In this document: piece after piece, positions 390 to 31,951 of the stretch
Layout of the letters: the number at the start of each line of letters is the position of its first letter
Position numbering within the stretch: position 1 is the stretch's first letter
NCBI GenBank assembly: GCA_018435125.1
Contig: JAHDNZ010000019.1
Span: 1 to 40,859 of the forward strand
Source of the DNA: Bacillota bacterium
GTDB lineage: Bacteria; Bacillota; DTU065
Direction: 5' to 3'
Length of the DNA stretch: 40,859 bases
Made by a program: the position numbers and the translations under genes
The notes under the pieces: generated by a model
Told to the model about the DNA's origin: nothing
The model's database searches: none
The model's input: the letters and a program-made list of their open reading frames with translations, nothing else

Positions 390-2654
390 TCAGAAGGTTA
401 AACCTATCGCTATTCTTCCTTCAATATTACTGATAGGACTTGAGCCAAGCTTAGCTCCGAAAATCAAATTGGAAATTCCTGTTTTAATATGGCATTCCGC
501 TTCCCAATAGGGACGTAAGAGTCTTTGATAACTTGCTCCTAATCTAGCGTTAAAGACAAATACCTCTGGGTTAATTACCCGATAGACCAATCCAGCACCT
601 GCTTCGCCAAAACTATCACCTTTAGGATGCACGCGGTATCTGGCAAAGCTAAAGATGCCAAGACCACTTCCAAAGTAATAGTCACTGCCAGCCAAGAAAG
701 AGTTGTAATAAGCATACTCGCCATAACCACCGCCAAAGTCGCCACCATAATTAGCTAGCTCGGCTTTACAAGTTAGGTTTTTAGAAATCGGAAAGCTGGT
801 ATTTAACCCTACTACTAATGGCGTAGCCTGGAAATCAGCCCCTATAAAACCAACTATTCTCTTTTCGATGTTCTTTAGCTGCCAATAGGGCATCAGTTTG
901 ATGGTTATTTCTTTTCTTTCGCGATCCAAGATCTCCACCTTGGATCTTGAGGCTAGATTACCACTTGATAATTCTAGAGTATACTGGTCCTCAGGTAAAT
1001 CCTCTAGGGTAAGTGGGGTCTTACCTCGATAAATACCATCAAGATAAACCTCAGCCTTTTCAGGTAGCGATTGAACAGTTAAGGTGCCAATTTTACGTTC
1101 TAGTGTTTCTTCAACTACCAGACGTTCATTGCTATAGATATTAATATTTTTAACTACACTGCGATACCCATCTTTAGAGATCTCTACTGTAATAAGACCC
1201 GGACCGGCTTCGGAATAGGTAAACGGTGTTTTACCCACTTCTTTGCCATCTACCTTGATCGTTGCTCTCGCCGGTTCGGAATAAAAAGTAATGGTGCCGG
1301 GCGGTAGTTGCAGCGTAGCTTTTACTAACTCTTTTTTTCCTGAAGTAAAAAGTAATCTCTCATTCCAGTCTCTCCAGCCAGGTTTACTCATTTTTACATC
1401 ATGATAACCCGGTTCCACAAAGAAAGGCCCATACGGCGAATTGGCAACAAAACTGCCATCAATATAAACCATAGCTCCAGTAGGGTCGGATTCAAAATAG
1501 AGTTCAGCTGGTGAGCCGGTAACATGGAAAAAGACTGTTGAACTTAAACCCGGTGAAATCCAAACCGACTGCTCCTGGTTAGGATAACCGGGTACAGCTA
1601 GTTCTAAGCGGTAAAAACCCTTAGGAAGATCCAAAATCAAAGGGGTTTTACCTTGTTTAACATTATTTACATAACAATCGCCCTGGACATTGGAGTTAAT
1701 CTGAAGTCTACCAAGCTTCTCAGGTAAAACAGGTGTGATTTTGTTTACAGTATCGGCCTTTACCTTGACTTTTTCGATTAAGTCTTCATGAAGTGGCTCC
1801 TTGAAAACAAGTTTGTATGTTCCTTCCGGTACACTTCTTATCGTTAAGGGAGTCTTACCGATTAAAAAATCATCAATAAATACAGTAGCTCCTCTGGGAA
1901 TAGAATCGATCTCTAGGGTTCCATATCCAGCAACTATCTGCCTGCTCACAAAATCTCCTATCTTAATACGTAAATAAGAATCTTCTTTAATTATTTTGGC
2001 AGTCGCACGATTGCCATTGACTGAGGTAACTTCTATTTCGCCCACCCTTACCAAAGGAGAACGAGTATACTTAACAAAAGCTGGATTAGGTTCTTCCTTT
2101 CGGTAGACATTAAAAACCTGTCCTTTAAATATCCCTATCCCGCCACCACTTAATAGTTCAACAGTTAATCCGCTTACCATGGTAATTTTATGTTCGGTAG
2201 TTAGTGCAACATTCAATCTTTGTAAAAGTCCATTAGCCAGGTTCTTATCGATTGTTAAGGGGTTACCTGCTAAAACATACTCTAAACTCTGTCCACTTTT
2301 TAAATTATAAAAGCGAATCGCAGTTTGGTAGCTCGCCCCGGCAGGTTTAATTTCACCTATTATAACCGCATCTACCTTGTTAACTGCCAGTACTTCTCCG
2401 GGATATTTTTCTAAAAACGCTTTTCTGTCACCGATTAAAGTATCTACTTCACCACTGGTTAAAACCTTAAAATCTTTTTGGTTATTAAAAGTTTTATATA
2501 AAGTTCCACTGATCTTTTCTGCTGCCACCCACTGATCAGAAGTATAAGGTTTAACGCCAATTATAGCTACCTCGATAGCTGTTGCTGCCAAACTTAGCAT
2601 AAATACCAGAGAGATACCTGTTAGATATTTTTTTAATATGCTACTCTTTGTCAT
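390..2654 (-). CDS. Secreted five-PEGA-repeat protein with C-terminal beta-barrel-like domain
   Basis: 754 residues with a signal peptide (about 1-26, ending AATA). Residues 27-240 form a domain recalling CsgG/FlgT-type envelope proteins: an N-terminal alpha/beta part, then a small beta domain with GIGIFKGQVFNVYR and IKIGDFV. Five PEGA repeats follow at about 245-311, 315-380, 383-450, 453-518 and 523-587; repeats 1, 2, 4 and 5 show the GKTPL/GKTPF turn and repeat 3 has lost it (ANSPYGPF). Residues 595-754 are rich in alternating Gly/aromatic strands and end in GLTF, like an outer-membrane beta-barrel with a terminal Phe. The ATG is preceded by GGGAGGGGTGA. It is last in a run with 2740-3861 and 3906-4127. 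Inferred role: a periplasmic spacer or wall-binding chain attached to an outer-membrane anchor. Function not established. Confidence 0.85.
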   Translation of the reverse strand: MTKSSILKKYLTGISLVFMLSLAATAIEVAIIGVKPYTSDQWVAAEKISGTLYKTFNNQKDFKVLTSGEVDTLIGDRKAFLEKYPGEVLAVNKVDAVIIGEIKPAGASYQTAIRFYNLKSGQSLEYVLAGNPLTIDKNLANGLLQRLNVALTTEHKITMVSGLTVELLSGGGIGIFKGQVFNVYRKEEPNPAFVKYTRSPLVRVGEIEVTSVNGNRATAKIIKEDSYLRIKIGDFVSRQIVAGYGTLEIDSIPRGATVFIDDFLIGKTPLTIRSVPEGTYKLVFKEPLHEDLIEKVKVKADTVNKITPVLPEKLGRLQINSNVQGDCYVNNVKQGKTPLILDLPKGFYRLELAVPGYPNQEQSVWISPGLSSTVFFHVTGSPAELYFESDPTGAMVYIDGSFVANSPYGPFFVEPGYHDVKMSKPGWRDWNERLLFTSGKKELVKATLQLPPGTITFYSEPARATIKVDGKEVGKTPFTYSEAGPGLITVEISKDGYRSVVKNINIYSNERLVVEETLERKIGTLTVQSLPEKAEVYLDGIYRGKTPLTLEDLPEDQYTLELSSGNLASRSKVEILDRERKEITIKLMPYWQLKNIEKRIVGFIGADFQATPLVVGLNTSFPISKNLTCKAELANYGGDFGGGYGEYAYYNSFLAGSDYYFGSGLGIFSFARYRVHPKGDSFGEAGAGLVYRVINPEVFVFNARLGASYQRLLRPYWEAECHIKTGISNLIFGAKLGSSPISNIEGRIAIGLTF

Positions 2655-2739: not shown

Positions 2740-3861
2740 CTAAACGTTACAGTTTTTTTTGCTATCCTCTTCCAAGATATCCATTATAGCGTAGCTTAGA
2801 ATACCGGCTAAAGTAGCAACTTTACGAAATGTTGTGGTTACAGGAGTTTTATTGGGATCAGCTTCCTTTTTTTCTGGTGGTTGGAAATATTCTACTCCCT
2901 GATCTAAAACCTCGTTAACAATCTCTCTCAGTTGTAAAAGAGCATAGTGACGAGCTTTTTCTAGACGGCGTTCTTTAATTAATGCCAGTAAAACTTCAGG
3001 ACAACGGTTCCAGGATACAGCCCACCAAACAGGCTCAACTTCTTTTAGTGGCAAATCTTTTTCAATACATTCTAAGACTTTTAGCATACCTTGTTCTAGG
3101 ACCTGACTAAATTCTGTAGCTAAAATACTGTCTTTGAGCCCAGAAAGAATATCATGGCCAAAAGCTACAATAGTAGCTTGATAGCCTAAGCTATTGCCAA
3201 CACTAATGCTCCCGTCAAAATACTCGGCATAAGGCCACCAGTTATTTGAGTGCACACCAAACCTGGCGATTAAGTGTTTGGCTACATCGGCTGCTAAATC
3301 ATGGTAAATAATATCATTAGTCACTTGGTAGGTACGCATTAGGGCTGCTCCTGCATAGGCATCACCATTTAAAACATCATGTTCTTTGGCATCCAATCTT
3401 TTATAATAGACACCAGCTACAGAAGGATGCTGCATTTGCAAGAGAAATTTAGCTGTTCCAATTAAAATATCCTTAGCTTCATCAGCTTTAGCATAGTGAT
3501 AAAGATAATAAAGTGCATCTGCTGCCGCACCTATTTCAGCGATATCTTTGGTTTGTTCTTTACCTCGGATAATATAAAATGGCTGTCCTAATGCCCCATC
3601 GGAGTGTTGCCTTTTAAGTGCCTTCTTTACTAAACACTTGGAGATTAACTGATAATTAGGAGAACCCTCAAAGACAAACTCTGCACAAAAAAGAGCAAGC
3701 GCTGCTTCTAGTGTAGTACAAGCACTAGCCATCTCCCCTAGTTCGCTATCTATTATATCGAAACTGTTTTGAGAAGTAACTATTTGCTTATTAAAATAGG
3801 GACAAAAAACCTTAAACAATTCACTTGCTAAACTCTTAATTTCATTGTTAAATAAGTCCAT
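2740..3861 (-). CDS. Hypothetical protein, alpha/alpha-toroid-like
   Basis: 373 residues, no signal peptide and no membrane segment. The sequence is helix-rich with repeated aromatic/acidic loops (FYIIRGKEQ, VLNGDAYAGAALMR, NNWWPYAEYFDGS, VEPVWWAVSWNRCPE), a pattern typical of six-hairpin glycosidase or epimerase-like (alpha/alpha) toroids. I do not recognise the family and see no certain catalytic pair. It starts 44 bases after the small membrane protein gene and ends 85 bases before the PEGA gene, all on the minus strand, so the three are probably co-transcribed. The ribosome-binding site is weak (AAAGGGTTGGTG about 8 bases before ATG). A cytoplasmic carbohydrate-active or binding role is possible but is inference only. 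Confidence 0.7.
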   Translation of the reverse strand: MDLFNNEIKSLASELFKVFCPYFNKQIVTSQNSFDIIDSELGEMASACTTLEAALALFCAEFVFEGSPNYQLISKCLVKKALKRQHSDGALGQPFYIIRGKEQTKDIAEIGAAADALYYLYHYAKADEAKDILIGTAKFLLQMQHPSVAGVYYKRLDAKEHDVLNGDAYAGAALMRTYQVTNDIIYHDLAADVAKHLIARFGVHSNNWWPYAEYFDGSISVGNSLGYQATIVAFGHDILSGLKDSILATEFSQVLEQGMLKVLECIEKDLPLKEVEPVWWAVSWNRCPEVLLALIKERRLEKARHYALLQLREIVNEVLDQGVEYFQPPEKKEADPNKTPVTTTFRKVATLAGILSYAIMDILEEDSKKNCNV

Positions 3862-4564: not shown

Positions 4565-5230
4565 TTGGATATGAAAATAATGCGTGCCATCGAACTTGGT
4601 AAAACTTACCGCGATGGTGAAAAAGAAACAGAAGTATTGCGACAAATAAATCTAGAAATTGAAGAAGGCGAGTTTGTCACCATAGCTGGTCCATCGGGTT
4701 CTGGAAAAAGCACTTTGCTTGGCCTTTTGGCCGGGCTTGATAAACCAACTACCGGTCAGGTGTTTATTGGTGAAAACGAAATAACTTCATTGAATGAGAA
4801 CCTTCTGGCTAAAATCCGCGGTAAAATGCTCGGTTTTGTTTTCCAGTCATTTAATCTAATTCCCACACTTAACACTTTAGAAAATATCGAATTACCATTG
4901 TTTTTAAACAAGATCCATGATGTTAATAGAGCTAAGGAGCTTATCGATCTAGTTGGTTTATCCCATCGCAGTAAACATTACCCCAACCAGCTTTCAGGTG
5001 GCGAGCAACAAAGAGTTGCTATAGCCAGAGCTTTAGTCTGTGACCCTCCCATTATTCTGGCCGACGAACCTACCGGAAACCTAGATAGCAGAAATAGTAA
5101 GACGGTAATCGATCTTTTAGTAAATCTTTCCGCAGAGAAAAGCAAAACTGTCATTGTTGTAACCCATGATCTCGACTTTGCTCAAAAAGCAAAGCGAGTT
5201 ATCCATATTAATGACGGACGGATTCAATAG
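4565..5230 (+). CDS. ABC transporter ATP-binding protein, MacB/LolD-type
   Basis: About 221 residues, the usual length for this family. Walker A is GPSGSGKST (about 39-47), the Q-loop is [10 protein letters not shown], the signature is [15 protein letters not shown], Walker B is [12 protein letters not shown] and the switch His is in VVTHD. Such ATPases power FtsX-like permeases that move lipoproteins, peptides or drugs across or out of the inner membrane rather than importing solutes. GAGGTG at 4554-4559 fits a TTG start at 4565; an ATG two codons later (4571) is the alternative. The permease gene follows after 10 bases, with its ribosome site between the two. No periplasmic adaptor gene (MacA) is next to it. 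Confidence 0.93.
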
Positions 5231-5240
5231 GAGGGTAACT

Positions 5241-7754
5241 ATGCATCTTTTTACCTTTGCCCTGAAAACTTTACCTCAAGAACTAAAAGGCGCTTGGCAA
5301 AGATCACTTTTGATTATACTTTGTCTAGCTGTAGGAATTGCCTCCATCTCAGCTGTTAAGATCTATACCGACTCCGGATTATTGTATTTTACCAGTAATA
5401 TCAAAGACTATTTCGGTGCCGATATTATTATCTCTCTACCGGAAAAATGCACTCAAAGCCAAGAAGAGTTTCTTCTCAGTCAAGACCTTGGGATTCTTAC
5501 CATCGTAGAAAACCACAGTCAGATTGCTTTTAACCCGTTTAACAAGCAAAACAATATGCCAGTTCAAGTCACTGTAATTGACCCCGACATTTATCCTTTG
5601 TATGGATCCTTAAAACTATTAGATGGTAGTTCACCTGCAGCACTACTCCAGGAAAAGCAGTCGGCTGTTGTGTCAGCTTCCCTCTTTGAACAGCTCCAGC
5701 TTAAACAAGATGGTCTTGTAATTGTTGGCAACACTCCCTATATTATTCGGGGTATTTTAGAGAGCAAAGCAGTTCCCGATGGCTTTATGGGACGAATCTA
5801 TACAGCAACAAAACCTGGGCTTTTGGGAGGCTCTTTCTCTACAAGCCAAGCCTATCTTAAGCTTAATCCTGATCTAAAACTTAATACCGCCAAAGAGAAA
5901 ATTACAACCATCTTTGAAAACGAACATATCTCTTCTTATGATGAAGTTAACGCTCATATCAACAAGTCTACCAGAATTTTAAGTAGTGTCGCTCTGATTG
6001 CTTCCCTAGCTTCTTTGCTACTTGGAGGTTTAGGAATAGCTAATGCAGCTTCAGTCATTGCTCGCCAAAAACTTAAACAAAGTGCGCTTATGAAATGCCT
6101 CGGAGGCAACACAGCTCAGATTGTTTTTATTATTGTGCTACAGATAACTTTTATAGCCTTTATAGGAATCTTAATGGGTTTTTTCCTTGGCTGGGCGCTT
6201 ACGGGTGTTTTTCCGTCTTTATTTAAAGATATCATTGCGGTTAATATCCCCATTCAACCGAATTTGGAAATCTTTGGGCAAATAGCTATTATGGGATTAC
6301 TGGTGACTATCTTCTTTGCTTTGCTTCCGGTGGTAAAGTTTACCCGCGTCAGACCTTTGGCAGTCTATAGAGATGACAACCCAGAAAAATTACTGCCAAA
6401 AAGCTCCAAACTGGTTACTAGTTTGGTTGTTTTGGGATTAACCTTAATTATGGGACTTTTTATCGGGGTAATTATTGATTTCCCTCTGGTTGGGGTTGGC
6501 TTTGCTATCGGTACTTTATTCTTTACGGCTCTTATCCACTTGGTAATAAATTTAATTCTCAAATTAATTTTGAAGCTCCCCATTTATGCCACTTCTACCG
6601 CCAAAATGGCCCGCAAAAGTCTAGCCCGACAGTCTGGGCGAGCTTCAGGTGCTGTTTTAGCTCTGGCCTTAGGCATCAGCTCAATTCTTATCATTTCCTT
6701 TATCCAAAAAGATGTTTCAGACTATATGGGTCAACTTCTCAAAGATCAAAAAACACCTAATATAATTGTTCTCCTAGACAGTAAAAGCGGTCCTAGCTCT
6801 ATAGCTGTCGAGGAATATTTGCTTAATGACCAACGCGTCGTTGATATTTCCACACTTAAAATGCTAACAGGTAGTCTCGAGCAGGTTAATCATAGAGCTC
6901 TTAAGACCGAAAATTTGTCTGACCCGCGTTTTGCCATGTTGACCAAAGCTTTTGTCATTGGTGCTGTAGATCCTCTCAATATGCCACTAGAACTTAATTA
7001 CACTGAAGGAGAAAAGCTTACCGCTGATGATGAGATAGTAATGGAAGAATTTATCGCTTCTTCTTTGGGACTTAAACTAGGAGACATTCTACAACTTAAA
7101 ATTGGGGATGAAATGAAAGATCTTAGGCTTGTCGGTTTTTACTCGAATGCTAAAACAGGAGTAAATATCAGTGCAACTAGCTATGCTTCCAATAATGCAC
7201 TAAGTAATCTCAGTTCTTCATTTACCACTGAACTTCTTCTGGCAAGAACCAAGCCAGGGATCTCTGGTAAGGAAGTAATTCAATCCCTACGGGCCAATAT
7301 CGCTAATCTACGTTTTGCTTTTGATATCGGGCAACTCTTTGACATCTTTAACACCATCTTTATAGCTATAACCCGCTTCATGCAGTTTTTGGGAATCTTT
7401 GCCTTAATTGCTGGGCTAATTATACTTGCAGGTACCATGATCCTTAATAAATGGGAAAAGAGAAAGGAAACTGCTCTTATTCGTTGTTTAGGTGGTACAA
7501 CTAAAGATGTTGTTCTTGTACAAATATGGGAAAATGGTATACTAGGAGTACTTTCGGGAATCTTAGGCATTTGGTTTGCTAACAGTATTAGTTGGGCCAT
7601 TGATACTAAAGTATTAAAACTGGAGTTTATTCCTCGGCCTTTGACTAATATCTTTTCTTTCTTGTTAATATTACTTGCAGTATTAACAGTTGGAGCCATT
7701 TCTCTTTGGGATGTTTTAAAAGAACGACCCTTAACTGTACTACGCAATGAATAA
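5241..7754 (+). CDS. FtsX-like ABC permease, large ten-TM type
   Basis: 837 residues from the ATG at 5241, which follows GGAGGGTAACT; a longer open frame reaches back into the ATPase gene but has no ribosome site. TM1 is near 22-42, followed by a large extracytoplasmic domain (about 45-240), three TMs with a cytoplasmic SALMKCLGG segment between the first two, then two more TMs, another TM (ASGAVLALALGISSILI), a second extracytoplasmic domain (about 500-690) and three C-terminal TMs, again with TALIRCLGG after the first. This duplicated FtsX layout matches YbbP/SalY-type permeases. It forms one transporter with the ATPase just upstream. Substrate unknown; lipoprotein or lipid handling would fit a diderm cell, but that is inference. 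Confidence 0.92.
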   Translation: MHLFTFALKTLPQELKGAWQRSLLIILCLAVGIASISAVKIYTDSGLLYFTSNIKDYFGADIIISLPEKCTQSQEEFLLSQDLGILTIVENHSQIAFNPFNKQNNMPVQVTVIDPDIYPLYGSLKLLDGSSPAALLQEKQSAVVSASLFEQLQLKQDGLVIVGNTPYIIRGILESKAVPDGFMGRIYTATKPGLLGGSFSTSQAYLKLNPDLKLNTAKEKITTIFENEHISSYDEVNAHINKSTRILSSVALIASLASLLLGGLGIANAASVIARQKLKQSALMKCLGGNTAQIVFIIVLQITFIAFIGILMGFFLGWALTGVFPSLFKDIIAVNIPIQPNLEIFGQIAIMGLLVTIFFALLPVVKFTRVRPLAVYRDDNPEKLLPKSSKLVTSLVVLGLTLIMGLFIGVIIDFPLVGVGFAIGTLFFTALIHLVINLILKLILKLPIYATSTAKMARKSLARQSGRASGAVLALALGISSILIISFIQKDVSDYMGQLLKDQKTPNIIVLLDSKSGPSSIAVEEYLLNDQRVVDISTLKMLTGSLEQVNHRALKTENLSDPRFAMLTKAFVIGAVDPLNMPLELNYTEGEKLTADDEIVMEEFIASSLGLKLGDILQLKIGDEMKDLRLVGFYSNAKTGVNISATSYASNNALSNLSSSFTTELLLARTKPGISGKEVIQSLRANIANLRFAFDIGQLFDIFNTIFIAITRFMQFLGIFALIAGLIILAGTMILNKWEKRKETALIRCLGGTTKDVVLVQIWENGILGVLSGILGIWFANSISWAIDTKVLKLEFIPRPLTNIFSFLLILLAVLTVGAISLWDVLKERPLTVLRNE

Positions 7755-9247: not shown

Positions 9248-9739
9248 ATGCAAAGGACTTTAGTACTGTTTTCAACGCTGTTACTTTTAGTAGTATTAAC
9301 CCTCACAGTAAGTGCCTACGATAAGTGTGTTGCAGTTAATGCTTTATCGTTAACTTACGGCTCTATAGGCGCTACCTATGAAACCCGTCATAACGATACT
9401 TTTTCCTTAGTTTTAGGTGCTCGGGTTAGTAGTTATGGTCTAAGCAGAGCTAGTTTTACCGGTTTAGCCGGTGTCCGTTATTACAAAGATTCAACCAACA
9501 TGGATGGAATTTATTTGGAAGGTAAAGGTTTTGCCGGAATTACTGTTTATGGTGTAGGTTCTTCGGCAACCTTTATGATTGGACCTGGGGTAAGTGGTGG
9601 CTACAAATACGTCTTTGATAAAGGCTATACTATTGATGCAGGATTGGGACTGGGAATTCCTTTTTATATCAATACCACCTCTGGTTTTTGGGTGGGCGTA
9701 GACTTTGAGCCACGTATTGCCTTAGGATATTCATGGTAA
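9248..9739 (+). CDS. Small secreted beta-barrel-like (outer membrane) protein
   Basis: 163 residues with a clear signal peptide (about 1-23, LTVSA-YDK). The mature part alternates hydrophobic and polar residues in Gly/Tyr-rich strands (TYGSIGATYETR, FSLVLGARVSSYG, GLAGVRYY, VSGGYKYVF, IDAGLGLGIPF, FWVGVDFEPRIALGYSW) and ends in Trp, the classical terminal aromatic of an outer-membrane barrel. The length would suit about eight strands. The ATG follows AAAGAGGAGG. It stands alone between two terminators. No sequence family recognised; the fold call comes from pattern only. Confidence 0.75.
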   Translation: MQRTLVLFSTLLLLVVLTLTVSAYDKCVAVNALSLTYGSIGATYETRHNDTFSLVLGARVSSYGLSRASFTGLAGVRYYKDSTNMDGIYLEGKGFAGITVYGVGSSATFMIGPGVSGGYKYVFDKGYTIDAGLGLGIPFYINTTSGFWVGVDFEPRIALGYSW

Positions 9740-30004: not shown

Positions 30005-30256
30005 TTCCTTTAGCTCCTCCTTTGAAAACTCAGTTAGTAATTCTTACTGATTATCTCTTTCCCGGGTAATTTTAATTCTCTTTGTATCTGCTTATACCTC
30101 TTTTTAAACTCTTTTAAATAGTGTGAAATCGATACCAATTGAATAATTCTGTATTTTATAACCATATTATTACCGAGGAGCCTTTTTCTTCTTTCCTGAA
30201 AATTTAAAAAAGGTAAGTGCAAAGGTTCCCTAATAAAACAATAAAGGGGTATGAGT

Positions 30257-30934
30257 ATGCAAAAAGGTTGGCTTTTTTTTATTATAGCTATGCTAGTCTT
30301 TTTAATAGCTAGTGGAGCTATAGCAGACGAGGTCTATTTAAGGGTTGCTTATGTTAAAAAAGGCCCTAAAATCGATGGAAAACTAGATGATGAGGCCTGG
30401 AAAATTGCAGAACAAAAAGGTGGCCAAGGTGTCCTAGAGTGGCATTTACATGGTAAACCAGCTACCTACAAATCCGATCTTTTCATCTGCTTTGATAACG
30501 ATAACCTTTATATTGCCTATAAAAACTACCAGAAGAAAGATACGGTAATTGCTACCTTTACCACCGATGGTAGCCCCTCTTGGACCAAAGACGATGATAT
30601 TGGCTCGTTTATCTCTACCACTTACCCTGCAACTACTTGGATGCAGGCGCTATCAAACCCAAACAGCATTCGCACTACATATAACATGGGCAGCAACGAT
30701 TCTTGGGATGTTGCTTGTGCTGTTTATGACGATTACTGGGTCGTAGAGCAGTGCATTCCCTTTGATAACTTCAATGTGTGGCCTGAAGCCGGTGATGAAT
30801 GGGCTGGTAACTTTACTCGCCATATTGGTGCTAATACCGGTGCCGGAGATATTGAGTGGTTAAGCTGGAGTCCTCTGGTTAAGGCTACCTTCCTTGATGC
30901 CACAACCATGTGTCTTTTGGAGTTTGTAAAATAA
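30257..30934 (+). CDS. Secreted CBM9-like domain protein (copy 1)
   Basis: 225 residues from the ATG at 30257, which has AGGGG seven bases upstream; an ATG two codons earlier is on the ribosome site. A signal peptide (about 1-24, SGAIA-DE) is followed by one family 9 carbohydrate-binding-like domain: GPKIDGKLDDEAWKIAE, LFICFDNDNLYIAYKN, KDDDIGSF and WSPLVKATFLDA. There is no catalytic domain. CBM9 binds sugar chain ends, or in cellobiose dehydrogenase-like relatives has other roles. It is a paralog of the gene at 31280; the two share their start and end blocks (GDEWA.NF.RH.G, EFVK end). Confidence 0.85.
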   Translation: MQKGWLFFIIAMLVFLIASGAIADEVYLRVAYVKKGPKIDGKLDDEAWKIAEQKGGQGVLEWHLHGKPATYKSDLFICFDNDNLYIAYKNYQKKDTVIATFTTDGSPSWTKDDDIGSFISTTYPATTWMQALSNPNSIRTTYNMGSNDSWDVACAVYDDYWVVEQCIPFDNFNVWPEAGDEWAGNFTRHIGANTGAGDIEWLSWSPLVKATFLDATTMCLLEFVK

Positions 30935-31207: not shown

Positions 31208-31283
31208 TAGAGGCCTTGATGTGGGGGAGGAGAGCAAATAGCCTCTAATGTTCATCCTAAACTTAAGGGGGTACATTTTGTGA
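31208..31283 (+). promoter_or_regulatory. Leader of CBM9 copy 2: inverted repeat and 11-codon leader ORF
   Basis: TAGAGGC (31208-31214) pairs with GCCTCTA (31241-31247); the 26-base loop holds GGGGGAGGAGAG, a ribosome-site-like stretch. An ATG follows directly at 31248 and gives an 11-residue frame (MFILNLRGYIL) whose TGA overlaps the GTG start of the CBM9 gene (31280). Such a layout can control translation, but nothing beyond the pattern supports it. Confidence 0.35.
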
Positions 31284-31951
31284 AGAAAAATTTCTCATTC
31301 TTTCTAATTGCTATTTTGGTGCTCGCCATTGCTGGCTTGGCAATTGCTGCCGATGTCTCAGTGAGCGCTCCTCAAGTTAAAAAAGCTCCCAAACTTGATG
31401 GAAAATTAGATGACGAAGCCTGGAAGATCGCTGCCGATAAAGGTGGCAAAATTTCCTTAAATTATCACCTTAACGGCAAAGCTGCTTCTAAAGATTTCCC
31501 AACCGAAGTCTATCTATGCTGGGATGTCGACAATCTTTATGTTGCCTATAAATGTTTCCAACCGGAAAATACAGTTATTGCCACTGTAACAAACGATGGA
31601 GGCTCAACCTGGACCTGTGACGATGATATTGAGTTTTTTATCGATACCCAATATCCTGCAGCCACATACAAACAGTTTGTCAGCAATCCTAACGGCATTC
31701 TCTCCGTTACCCTAAATGACTGGGAAGCAGTAGCTGAGATCTACAAAGATCACTGGGTAGTTGAAATGGCTATTGCTTTTGACGTCTTTGGAGAATGGCC
31801 AGATGTAGGCGACGAATGGGCAGCTAACTTCTCCCGCCACCTTGGTAACTTTAACGGTGCAGGAGATACAGAGTGGCTTACCTGGAGTCCTCTCGTACAA
31901 TCAACCTTCCTTAGTGCTGCTACACTCTGTTCTGTGGAGTTTGTTAAGTAA
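31280..31951 (+). CDS. Secreted CBM9-like domain protein (copy 2)
   Basis: 223 residues from a GTG start with AAGGGGGT upstream. Signal peptide about 1-23 (GLAIA-AD). A single CBM9-like domain: APKLDGKLDDEAWKIAA, VYLCWDVDNLYVAYK, TCDDDIEFFIDTQYP, GDEWAANFSRHLGNFNGAG, LTWSPLVQSTFLSAATLC. It is clearly a tandem duplicate of the gene at 30257, but more acidic and with a different 80-130 region. Both end EFVK. A secreted or surface carbohydrate-binding role is inferred; no enzyme domain is attached. Confidence 0.85.
   Translation: MKKNFSFFLIAILVLAIAGLAIAADVSVSAPQVKKAPKLDGKLDDEAWKIAADKGGKISLNYHLNGKAASKDFPTEVYLCWDVDNLYVAYKCFQPENTVIATVTNDGGSTWTCDDDIEFFIDTQYPAATYKQFVSNPNGILSVTLNDWEAVAEIYKDHWVVEMAIAFDVFGEWPDVGDEWAANFSRHLGNFNGAGDTEWLTWSPLVQSTFLSAATLCSVEFVK

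Follow-up and report, generated by a model that had tools for sequence, protein, structure and literature searches.

A single protein of 754 amino acids, encoded near one end of the window (the whole 40,859-nucleotide stretch of DNA analysed here, from a Bacillota bacterium of the DTU065 lineage), combines a putative signal peptide, a two-domain head, a stalk of five PEGA domains and a predicted C-terminal barrel, and it is probably an outer-membrane-anchored periplasmic arm that positions a docking domain close to the wall or the inner membrane. The chain would be exported by Sec, with its signal peptide then removed, and BamA would insert the predicted ten-stranded barrel into the outer membrane. 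Because the strand number is even and the C-terminus would be periplasmic, the N-terminus of the barrel would be periplasmic as well and the stalk would run inward; with seven modelled strands per sandwich, entry and exit would lie at opposite ends of each bead, and the stalk is estimated at roughly 3 nm per bead, or 15–18 nm in total. The TolB-N/LpoB-like and FlgT_C-like head would be held near the peptidoglycan or the inner membrane, docking on an envelope partner, and through this putative partner the arm could also be linked mechanically to the wall. The barrel would replace the lipid anchor of outer membrane lipoproteins such as LpoB, a reading that agrees with a review whose relevant excerpt describes outer membrane lipoproteins as lacking in diderm Terrabacteria. 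The features discussed are listed below, with the basis of each assignment in brackets.

390–2654, minus strand: whole ORF, 754 aa, with signal peptide, N-domain, FlgT_C-like domain, five PEGA domains and C-terminal barrel
2577–2654, minus strand: putative signal peptide, residues 1–26, Sec/SPase I type, no lipobox (by eye)
2196–2576, minus strand: N-domain, residues 27–153, TolB-N/FlgT_M/LpoB/PelC-like alpha/beta fold (AlphaFold2 and VIA-align)
1935–2195, minus strand: small beta domain, residues 154–240, FlgT_C-like (F1-ATPase-beta-N-like barrel) (sub-threshold PF16538 and VIA-align)
1722–1925, minus strand: PEGA 1, residues 244–311 (Pfam and AlphaFold2)
1512–1721, minus strand: PEGA 2, residues 312–381 (Pfam and AlphaFold2)
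1305–1511, minus strand: PEGA 3, residues 382–450 (Pfam and AlphaFold2)
1098–1304, minus strand: PEGA 4, residues 451–519 (Pfam and AlphaFold2; 2nsm match)
891–1097, minus strand: PEGA 5, residues 520–588 (Pfam and AlphaFold2)
393–872, minus strand: predicted C-terminal ten-stranded barrel, residues 595–754, ending GRIAIGLTF (AlphaFold2, VIA-align, face conservation)
2740–3861, minus strand: upstream neighbour, 373 aa, weakly GlcNAc 2-epimerase-like (PF07221, 15.7 bits, cut-off 23.4)
9248–9739, plus strand: small secreted barrel-like protein, DUF3575, Trp end (PF12099, 23.3 bits, cut-off 21.1)

The ORF runs from an ATG start in a single unbroken frame on the minus strand, and the order of signal peptide, N-domain, five PEGA repeats, barrel and terminal Phe proposed in the original prediction was recovered on that strand. 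A plus-strand reading of 390–2654 was rejected, as it contains stops throughout. By eye, the proposed signal peptide shows a hydrophobic N-terminus and an Ala-x-Ala-like site before residue 27, whose position is shared by three orthologs; no lipobox Cys is seen there, and no membrane anchor at the N-terminus of the mature chain. A PDB sequence search with the whole chain, the N-domain or the barrel returned no meaningful match. The LIC10124 family lipoprotein model NF047815 reached 78.3 bits against a cut-off of 650, with its best stretch (residues 453–562) inside the PEGA region. The chain was scanned against Pfam at E<=10, although most matches with E above roughly 0.1 are removed by the filters of HMMER.

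The AlphaFold2 models rest on four to five sequences. For the whole chain, modelled from five aligned rows, only the best model is good (mean pLDDT 77.1, pTM 0.38; the other four 68.7, 62.6, 60.2 and 55.0), and its low pTM means that the relative placement of the domains is not fixed by the model. Its secondary structure comprises an alpha/beta domain at 27–153, a small beta domain at 154–240, five seven-strand repeats at 244–586 and ten strands at 599–753, while residues 1–25 fall below a pLDDT of 50. The five PEGA repeats that had been read from the sequence were borne out by an HMM search (PF08308, five stretches, E 2.4e-64; 213.6 bits, cut-off 20.8), and the region 244–586 was modelled as beta strands, free of helix. 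PEGA 4 takes the form of a transthyretin-like sandwich as in carboxypeptidase N/D; in VIA-align it matches this domain in carboxypeptidase N (2nsm) at Z 8.8, with 67 residues aligned and an rmsd of 1.6. Among the 18 readable repeats from four genomes, those at the same position are on average 63.8% identical across genomes (24 pairs) versus 23.8% for repeats at different positions (96 pairs; 23.9% within one chain, 33 pairs), so the array has been kept in register as distinct beads in a fixed order. The built-in periplasmic spacer that was originally proposed thus fits the five predicted PEGA sandwiches, the predicted barrel and the diderm lineage described below.

The layout was found in four of the five genomes of the family (the window's own, G000, and G001, G004 and G003) and nowhere else among the 41 genomes searched. 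The ortholog in G001 (L012, contig C72) is complete, the one in G004 (L013, C29) ends early in the barrel, that copy being spread over two contigs that were not joined, and the one in G003 (L014, C21) is partly masked; all three keep the domain order, at 42–65% identity row by row. The fifth genome, G002 (85% complete, 450 contigs), has neither the gene nor its neighbour gene, and absence there is not separable from loss. The remaining matches in the 41-genome search covered PEGA regions only, in a glucosaminidase-like G000 protein and one G015 protein. A barrel profile run against 41 genomes and an N-domain profile run against 61 each matched four genomes, all of family f1. In a collection of genomes from 84,980 species, the protein alone as query gave six pattern matches and no confirmed relative, and the alignment as query gave 118 pattern matches, of which three were confirmed. 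These are the G001, G004 and G003 contigs, from Clostridia bacterium DTU065, a Bacillota MAG (isolate STF2_155) and Firmicutes bacterium UBA4881; since the scan used two short N-domain peptides, distant relatives in other phyla may escape it. PEGA domains themselves are more widespread, with matches in 22 of 81 genomes, including all five of the family; outside the family there are at most three per genome, the maximum being in G015 (three matches on three contigs), and four outside-family PEGA proteins that were read through (L006, L030, L035 and L037) do not have the layout of five PEGA domains plus barrel. A lipoprotein-like protein elsewhere in the window's genome (L002 1420–2739, G000:C57) has a pair of PEGA domains together with a glucosaminidase-like region (22.5 bits, cut-off 30.2); the gene after it has a similar C-terminal part, and by reading, G002 encodes a similar protein with one PEGA match (L036).

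An outer membrane for the barrel to sit in is indicated by the gene content of the lineage. Omp85/BamA was found in 13 of the 41 genomes searched and in all five of the family, the window's own included, and LpxC in 11 of 41 and in four of the five, again including the window's genome. That genome also has an outer membrane cluster with Omp85, OmpH, LptD_N, LptF/LptG and LptC matches, and by reading the same region holds LpxA, LpxB, LpxD and LpxI. BamA, LpxC and the Lpx/Lpt cluster together mark the lineage as diderm, and two membranes with LPS are, as judged from these genes, well supported for the DTU065 family; a single-membrane relative lineage, the case named at the outset as counting against a tether, is not what these genomes point to. 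In an excerpt of PMC11456536, DTU065 is placed in a class sister to Limnochordia, within Firmicutes G of GTDB. Within the outer membrane biogenesis cluster (L041 13516–14967, G000:C43), two small secreted Phe-ending proteins lie between LpxD and LptF/LptG, and one of them matches YjbH at 25.6 bits, just over the cut-off of 24.

Proteins of this general kind are known. OmpM/SlpA, as described in parts of PMC10628300 and PMC9388160, joins a periplasmic SLH head, a coiled-coil stalk and a C-terminal outer membrane barrel in one chain. The PEGA protein shares with it the periplasmic head, the long stalk and a C-terminal transmembrane-type beta-barrel, the last being supported here by prediction and conservation. 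Unlike OmpM/SlpA, it has neither SLH (no match at Pfam E<=10) nor coiled coil (244–586 being beta), and has instead a five-sandwich stalk, a small ten-stranded barrel and a TolB/LpoB-like head. In Veillonella parvula, the long MlaD has been proposed to span the periplasm as one polypeptide with an outer membrane barrel at its C-terminus (PMC10665443, in part); its inner-membrane helix, MCE domain and helical stalk were not seen in the PEGA protein, in which the MCE family gave no Pfam match at E<=10. LpoB, the outer membrane lipoprotein that activates PBP1B, has a similar head fold and a spacer that holds the head off the outer membrane, reaching up to 145 A according to the portion of PMC4632607 consulted, but it relies on a lipid anchor and a disordered linker where the PEGA protein has a barrel and PEGA beads. 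In excerpts of PMC9388160 and PMC3387000, Thermotoga Omp-alpha is a spacer of the diderm periplasm built from SLH, coiled coil and a transmembrane helix; it resembles the PEGA protein as a periplasmic spacer, and its build is found in separate SLH proteins of the DTU065 family. The kind is therefore known from OmpM/SlpA and long MlaD, the PEGA protein swapping every module save the barrel idea, and what is new in the layout is how known parts are combined. In the set of open-licence PMC papers searched, we found no paper on PEGA domains with outer membrane barrels in diderm Firmicutes, and none that brings together at least three of LpoB, TolB, CsgG and FlgT. Work on envelope evolution has yet to settle how an outer membrane is wired to the wall and the inner membrane without outer membrane lipoproteins, and a barrel anchor joined through five beads to a head of the TolB/LpoB class would be a testable wiring candidate in a little-studied branch of diderm Bacillota.

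The original prediction had gone further, to a tether between outer membrane and peptidoglycan, and this was only partly supported: the predicted barrel, the spacer and the diderm lineage stand, but no wall-binding domain was found and Omp-alpha-like SLH proteins occur in the family. A direct tether, in which the PEGA or N-domain would bind peptidoglycan or a wall polymer in OmpM's place, overlaps with the periplasmic arm, so that the odds of the two need not sum to one; we regard it as rather unlikely. It has the general layout of OmpM/SlpA on its side, and the glucosaminidase-like region on the other G000 PEGA protein hints at PEGA near the wall. Against it, the chain has no SLH, OmpA, LysM or SPOR match (Pfam, E<=10), and PEGA is not known to have wall-binding activity. 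OmpA-like wall-binding domains occur in 11 of 13 chosen genomes, including all five of the family; in the window's genome the domain belongs to a MotB-like gene. The SLH proteins bear on both sides of the question. At E<=0.001 each of the five family genomes has three (L048, L053 and L057 in the window's own genome; L044–L047, L049–L052, L054–L056 and L058 in the others), which apparently form three ortholog groups, and all 15 share a build in which a single SLH match is accompanied by a long charged stretch and, at the C-terminus, a hydrophobic helix (14 were analysed by script and L057 by reading; coiled coil was assigned by reading). None shows a barrel, so an SLH-barrel OmpM, a type described as widespread in diderm Terrabacteria in part of PMC10628300, was not seen in the five genomes at this threshold, which a very divergent SLH could escape; this favours a direct tether in OmpM's place. 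The same proteins look, from sequence, Omp-alpha-like, a known tether type, so that the PEGA protein is not the family's only candidate tether.

A docking or regulatory role for the arm is no less likely than that of a peptidoglycan tether. More tentatively, the job of OmpM could be divided in this class of diderm Bacillota, in which no SLH-barrel OmpM was found, with Omp-alpha-like SLH rods serving as tethers and the PEGA arm, anchored by its barrel, as a ruler of fixed length, a scheme that we offer as speculation with some chance of being right. Such a ruler would bring the LpoB/TolB-like head to the peptidoglycan machinery and, if true, would amount to a lipoprotein-free coupling of the outer membrane to wall synthesis. 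Counting against a docking arm, a Pfam scan (E<=0.001) of the class A PBP encoded in the window showed only transglycosylase and transpeptidase, and no domain on which an LpoB-like head could dock. Together with the Omp-alpha-like proteins found where OmpM was expected, the arm suggests that the tethering and docking parts of this class differ from the ones described in Negativicutes.

The head had been labelled CsgG/FlgT-like, and this label rests on fold and not on HMM matches: CsgG (PF03783) gave no match in the chain (Pfam, E<=10) or in the N-part, and FlgT_C (PF16538) stayed below its cut-off of 27 (14.6 bits for the whole chain, 16.7 for the N-part; 19.0 was also obtained). By fold, the predicted model of the N-domain places it in the TolB-N/FlgT_M/LpoB class. 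In VIA-align comparisons, residues 26–153 matched the TolB N-domain (2hqs_B; Z 11.8, 117 aligned, rmsd 2.8), and residues 19–240 matched FlgT (3w1e; Z 9.8, 194 aligned, with an rmsd of 12.5 over both domains). The N-domain further matched the LPHT ring (8z5n; Z 9.7, 122 aa, rmsd 4.2), PelC (5t0z_A; Z 8.7, 115 aa, rmsd 3.5) and LpoB (4q6l; Z 8.6, 103 aa, rmsd 3.1), and the head matched GNA1162 (Z 9.3). The small beta domain, with VIA-align rows on about 153–239 at Z 8.3–9.3, resembles FlgT_C by fold only, on the same predicted model. TolB carries a propeller, which is absent here; the N-domain fold is shared with both TolB and FlgT, and the barrel and PEGA domains are additions to it, with no Pfam match to either above cut-off. 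A separate secreted protein in another genome (G023, L081 808–1743) combines CsgG (E 8.3e-31) with FlgT_C (29.7 bits), also scoring 22.6 bits to LpoB, and has no PEGA or barrel; G023 also carries Omp85 and LpxC.

The likeness to FlgT raises the possibility of an envelope machine part, such as a flagellar outer ring with a FlgT-like subunit that brings its own outer membrane anchor. The N-terminal pair matches the middle domain and then the C-terminal domain of FlgT, in FlgT's own order; Foldseek ranks FlgT (3w1e) third and the LPHT ring (8z5n) fourth, and by reading, the window's genome has a MotB-like gene with a FliL-like one after it. We nevertheless consider such a role improbable, as no flagellar gene was read in the window (the contig ends 390 bases past the gene) or around the L012 copy, the FlgT_C match is sub-threshold, and the N-domain fold is common to many different envelope proteins.

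Whether the C-terminal region is a membrane or a soluble barrel was judged from models and from conservation. Modelled alone from four sequences, it again gave ten strands (pLDDT 78.6, pTM 0.71; mean pLDDT of the five models 78.6, 69.0, 46.6, 35.6 and 30.3), so that the best models of both chain and region predict a ten-stranded barrel at 595–754, where at least eight strands had been called for, and not a soluble beta sandwich. Among the matches listed, the best-scoring solved folds are outer membrane or designed transmembrane barrels, namely, by VIA-align on the Foldseek top chains, omptin Pla (2x4m_A; Z 14.7, 159 aligned, rmsd 3.0), the designed barrel TMB10 (8uzl_A; Z 14.5, 141 of 143 aligned, rmsd 2.8) and OpcA (1k24; Z 14.1, 151 aligned, rmsd 3.1); the barrel part of the full-chain model matched 8uzl_C at Z 13.9 (VIA-align). 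Pfam gave only DUF481, in one of four members (E 0.021). Soluble nitrobindin-type barrels also match, at lower scores (2fr2, Z 12.7; 3wjb, Z 12.2), and with Z values of about 12–12.7 for these the fold alone does not decide between membrane and soluble. Hydrophobic alternation in the ten strands was matched by only 1 of 5000 within-strand shuffles (p 0.0002), which, together with the same domain order in three orthologs, makes the layout more than chance; PEGA strands alternate as well (p 0.009), so alternation by itself is no proof of a membrane barrel.

The question was then tested by the conservation of the two strand faces. In four orthologous sequences, the hydrophobic face of the barrel is 34.6% identical and 0.5% charged, and the other face is 57.7% identical and 29.3% charged; the face was chosen by hydrophobicity and not from coordinates, which biases the charge figures and the identity figures much less. 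The identity difference was reached in 3 of 10,000 label permutations. The PEGA strands (19 strands of seven or more residues, three orthologs) show the reverse, the hydrophobic face being 67.5% identical versus 53.2% for the other, and the same two sequences compared over both regions gave 27.5% versus 61.5% in the barrel and 63.6% versus 44.4% in PEGA. A variable hydrophobic face is expected of one that faces lipid and a conserved one of a buried core, and the modelled C-terminus is therefore favoured as a membrane rather than a soluble barrel. The chain ends in Phe; counted back from it, residues 3, 5 and 7 are hydrophobic and residue 9 is Gly, which but for that Gly comes close to the porin 1-3-5-7-9 pattern given in an excerpt of PMC3387000. 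The other three readable C-termini end in IGLTF, IGFTF and LGISF. A soluble periplasmic protein with a lipocalin/nitrobindin-like, ligand-binding C-terminal barrel would suit the nitrobindin-type matches, but it is very unlikely given a face conservation opposite to that of the soluble PEGA domains and an outer-membrane-type C-terminal strand with a final Phe in all four readable C-termini. An autotransporter-like display, in which the barrel would export the N-terminal part to the cell surface, is hardly credible: N-terminal passenger and C-terminal barrel follow the classical order and the BrkA, EstA, NalP, EspP, Hbp and AIDA-I barrels appear lower in the structure list (Z 8.3–9.2), but the type V translocator barrel is twelve-stranded while the models here have ten strands, in about 160 residues versus the 245–305 of the barrel-only autotransporter chains listed, and periplasmic proteins are where the fold class of the head is known from.

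The proposed outer-membrane-anchored arm is encoded beside a conserved neighbour. The epimerase-like gene at 2740–3861 lies 85 bases from the PEGA gene on the same strand, and the two are likely co-transcribed. Its counterpart was found in four of the five family genomes; it adjoins the PEGA gene in L012 and L013 (369 aa each), and in G003 it is split by a contig end, its tail preceding the PEGA gene. Small ORFs resembling the barrel-like protein at 9248–9739 lie near the PEGA gene in L012 and L013, and the three of these ORFs that were tested gave no Pfam match at E<=0.1. Beyond the epimerase-like gene, positions 4565–7754 on the plus strand encode an ATPase and an 862-aa duplicated FtsX/MacB-type permease, a YbbA/YbbP-like ABC pair; the best NCBIfam match of the permease is YbbP, at 83 bits far below the cut-off of 999. 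The pair adjoins a GNAT gene, in an order that is the same in L012, L013 and L071. Further along, positions 30251–30934 and 31280–31951 on the plus strand encode adjacent secreted proteins that appear to be paralogs, of which the latter matches CBM9_1 (28.8 bits, cut-off 23.4) and the former does not.
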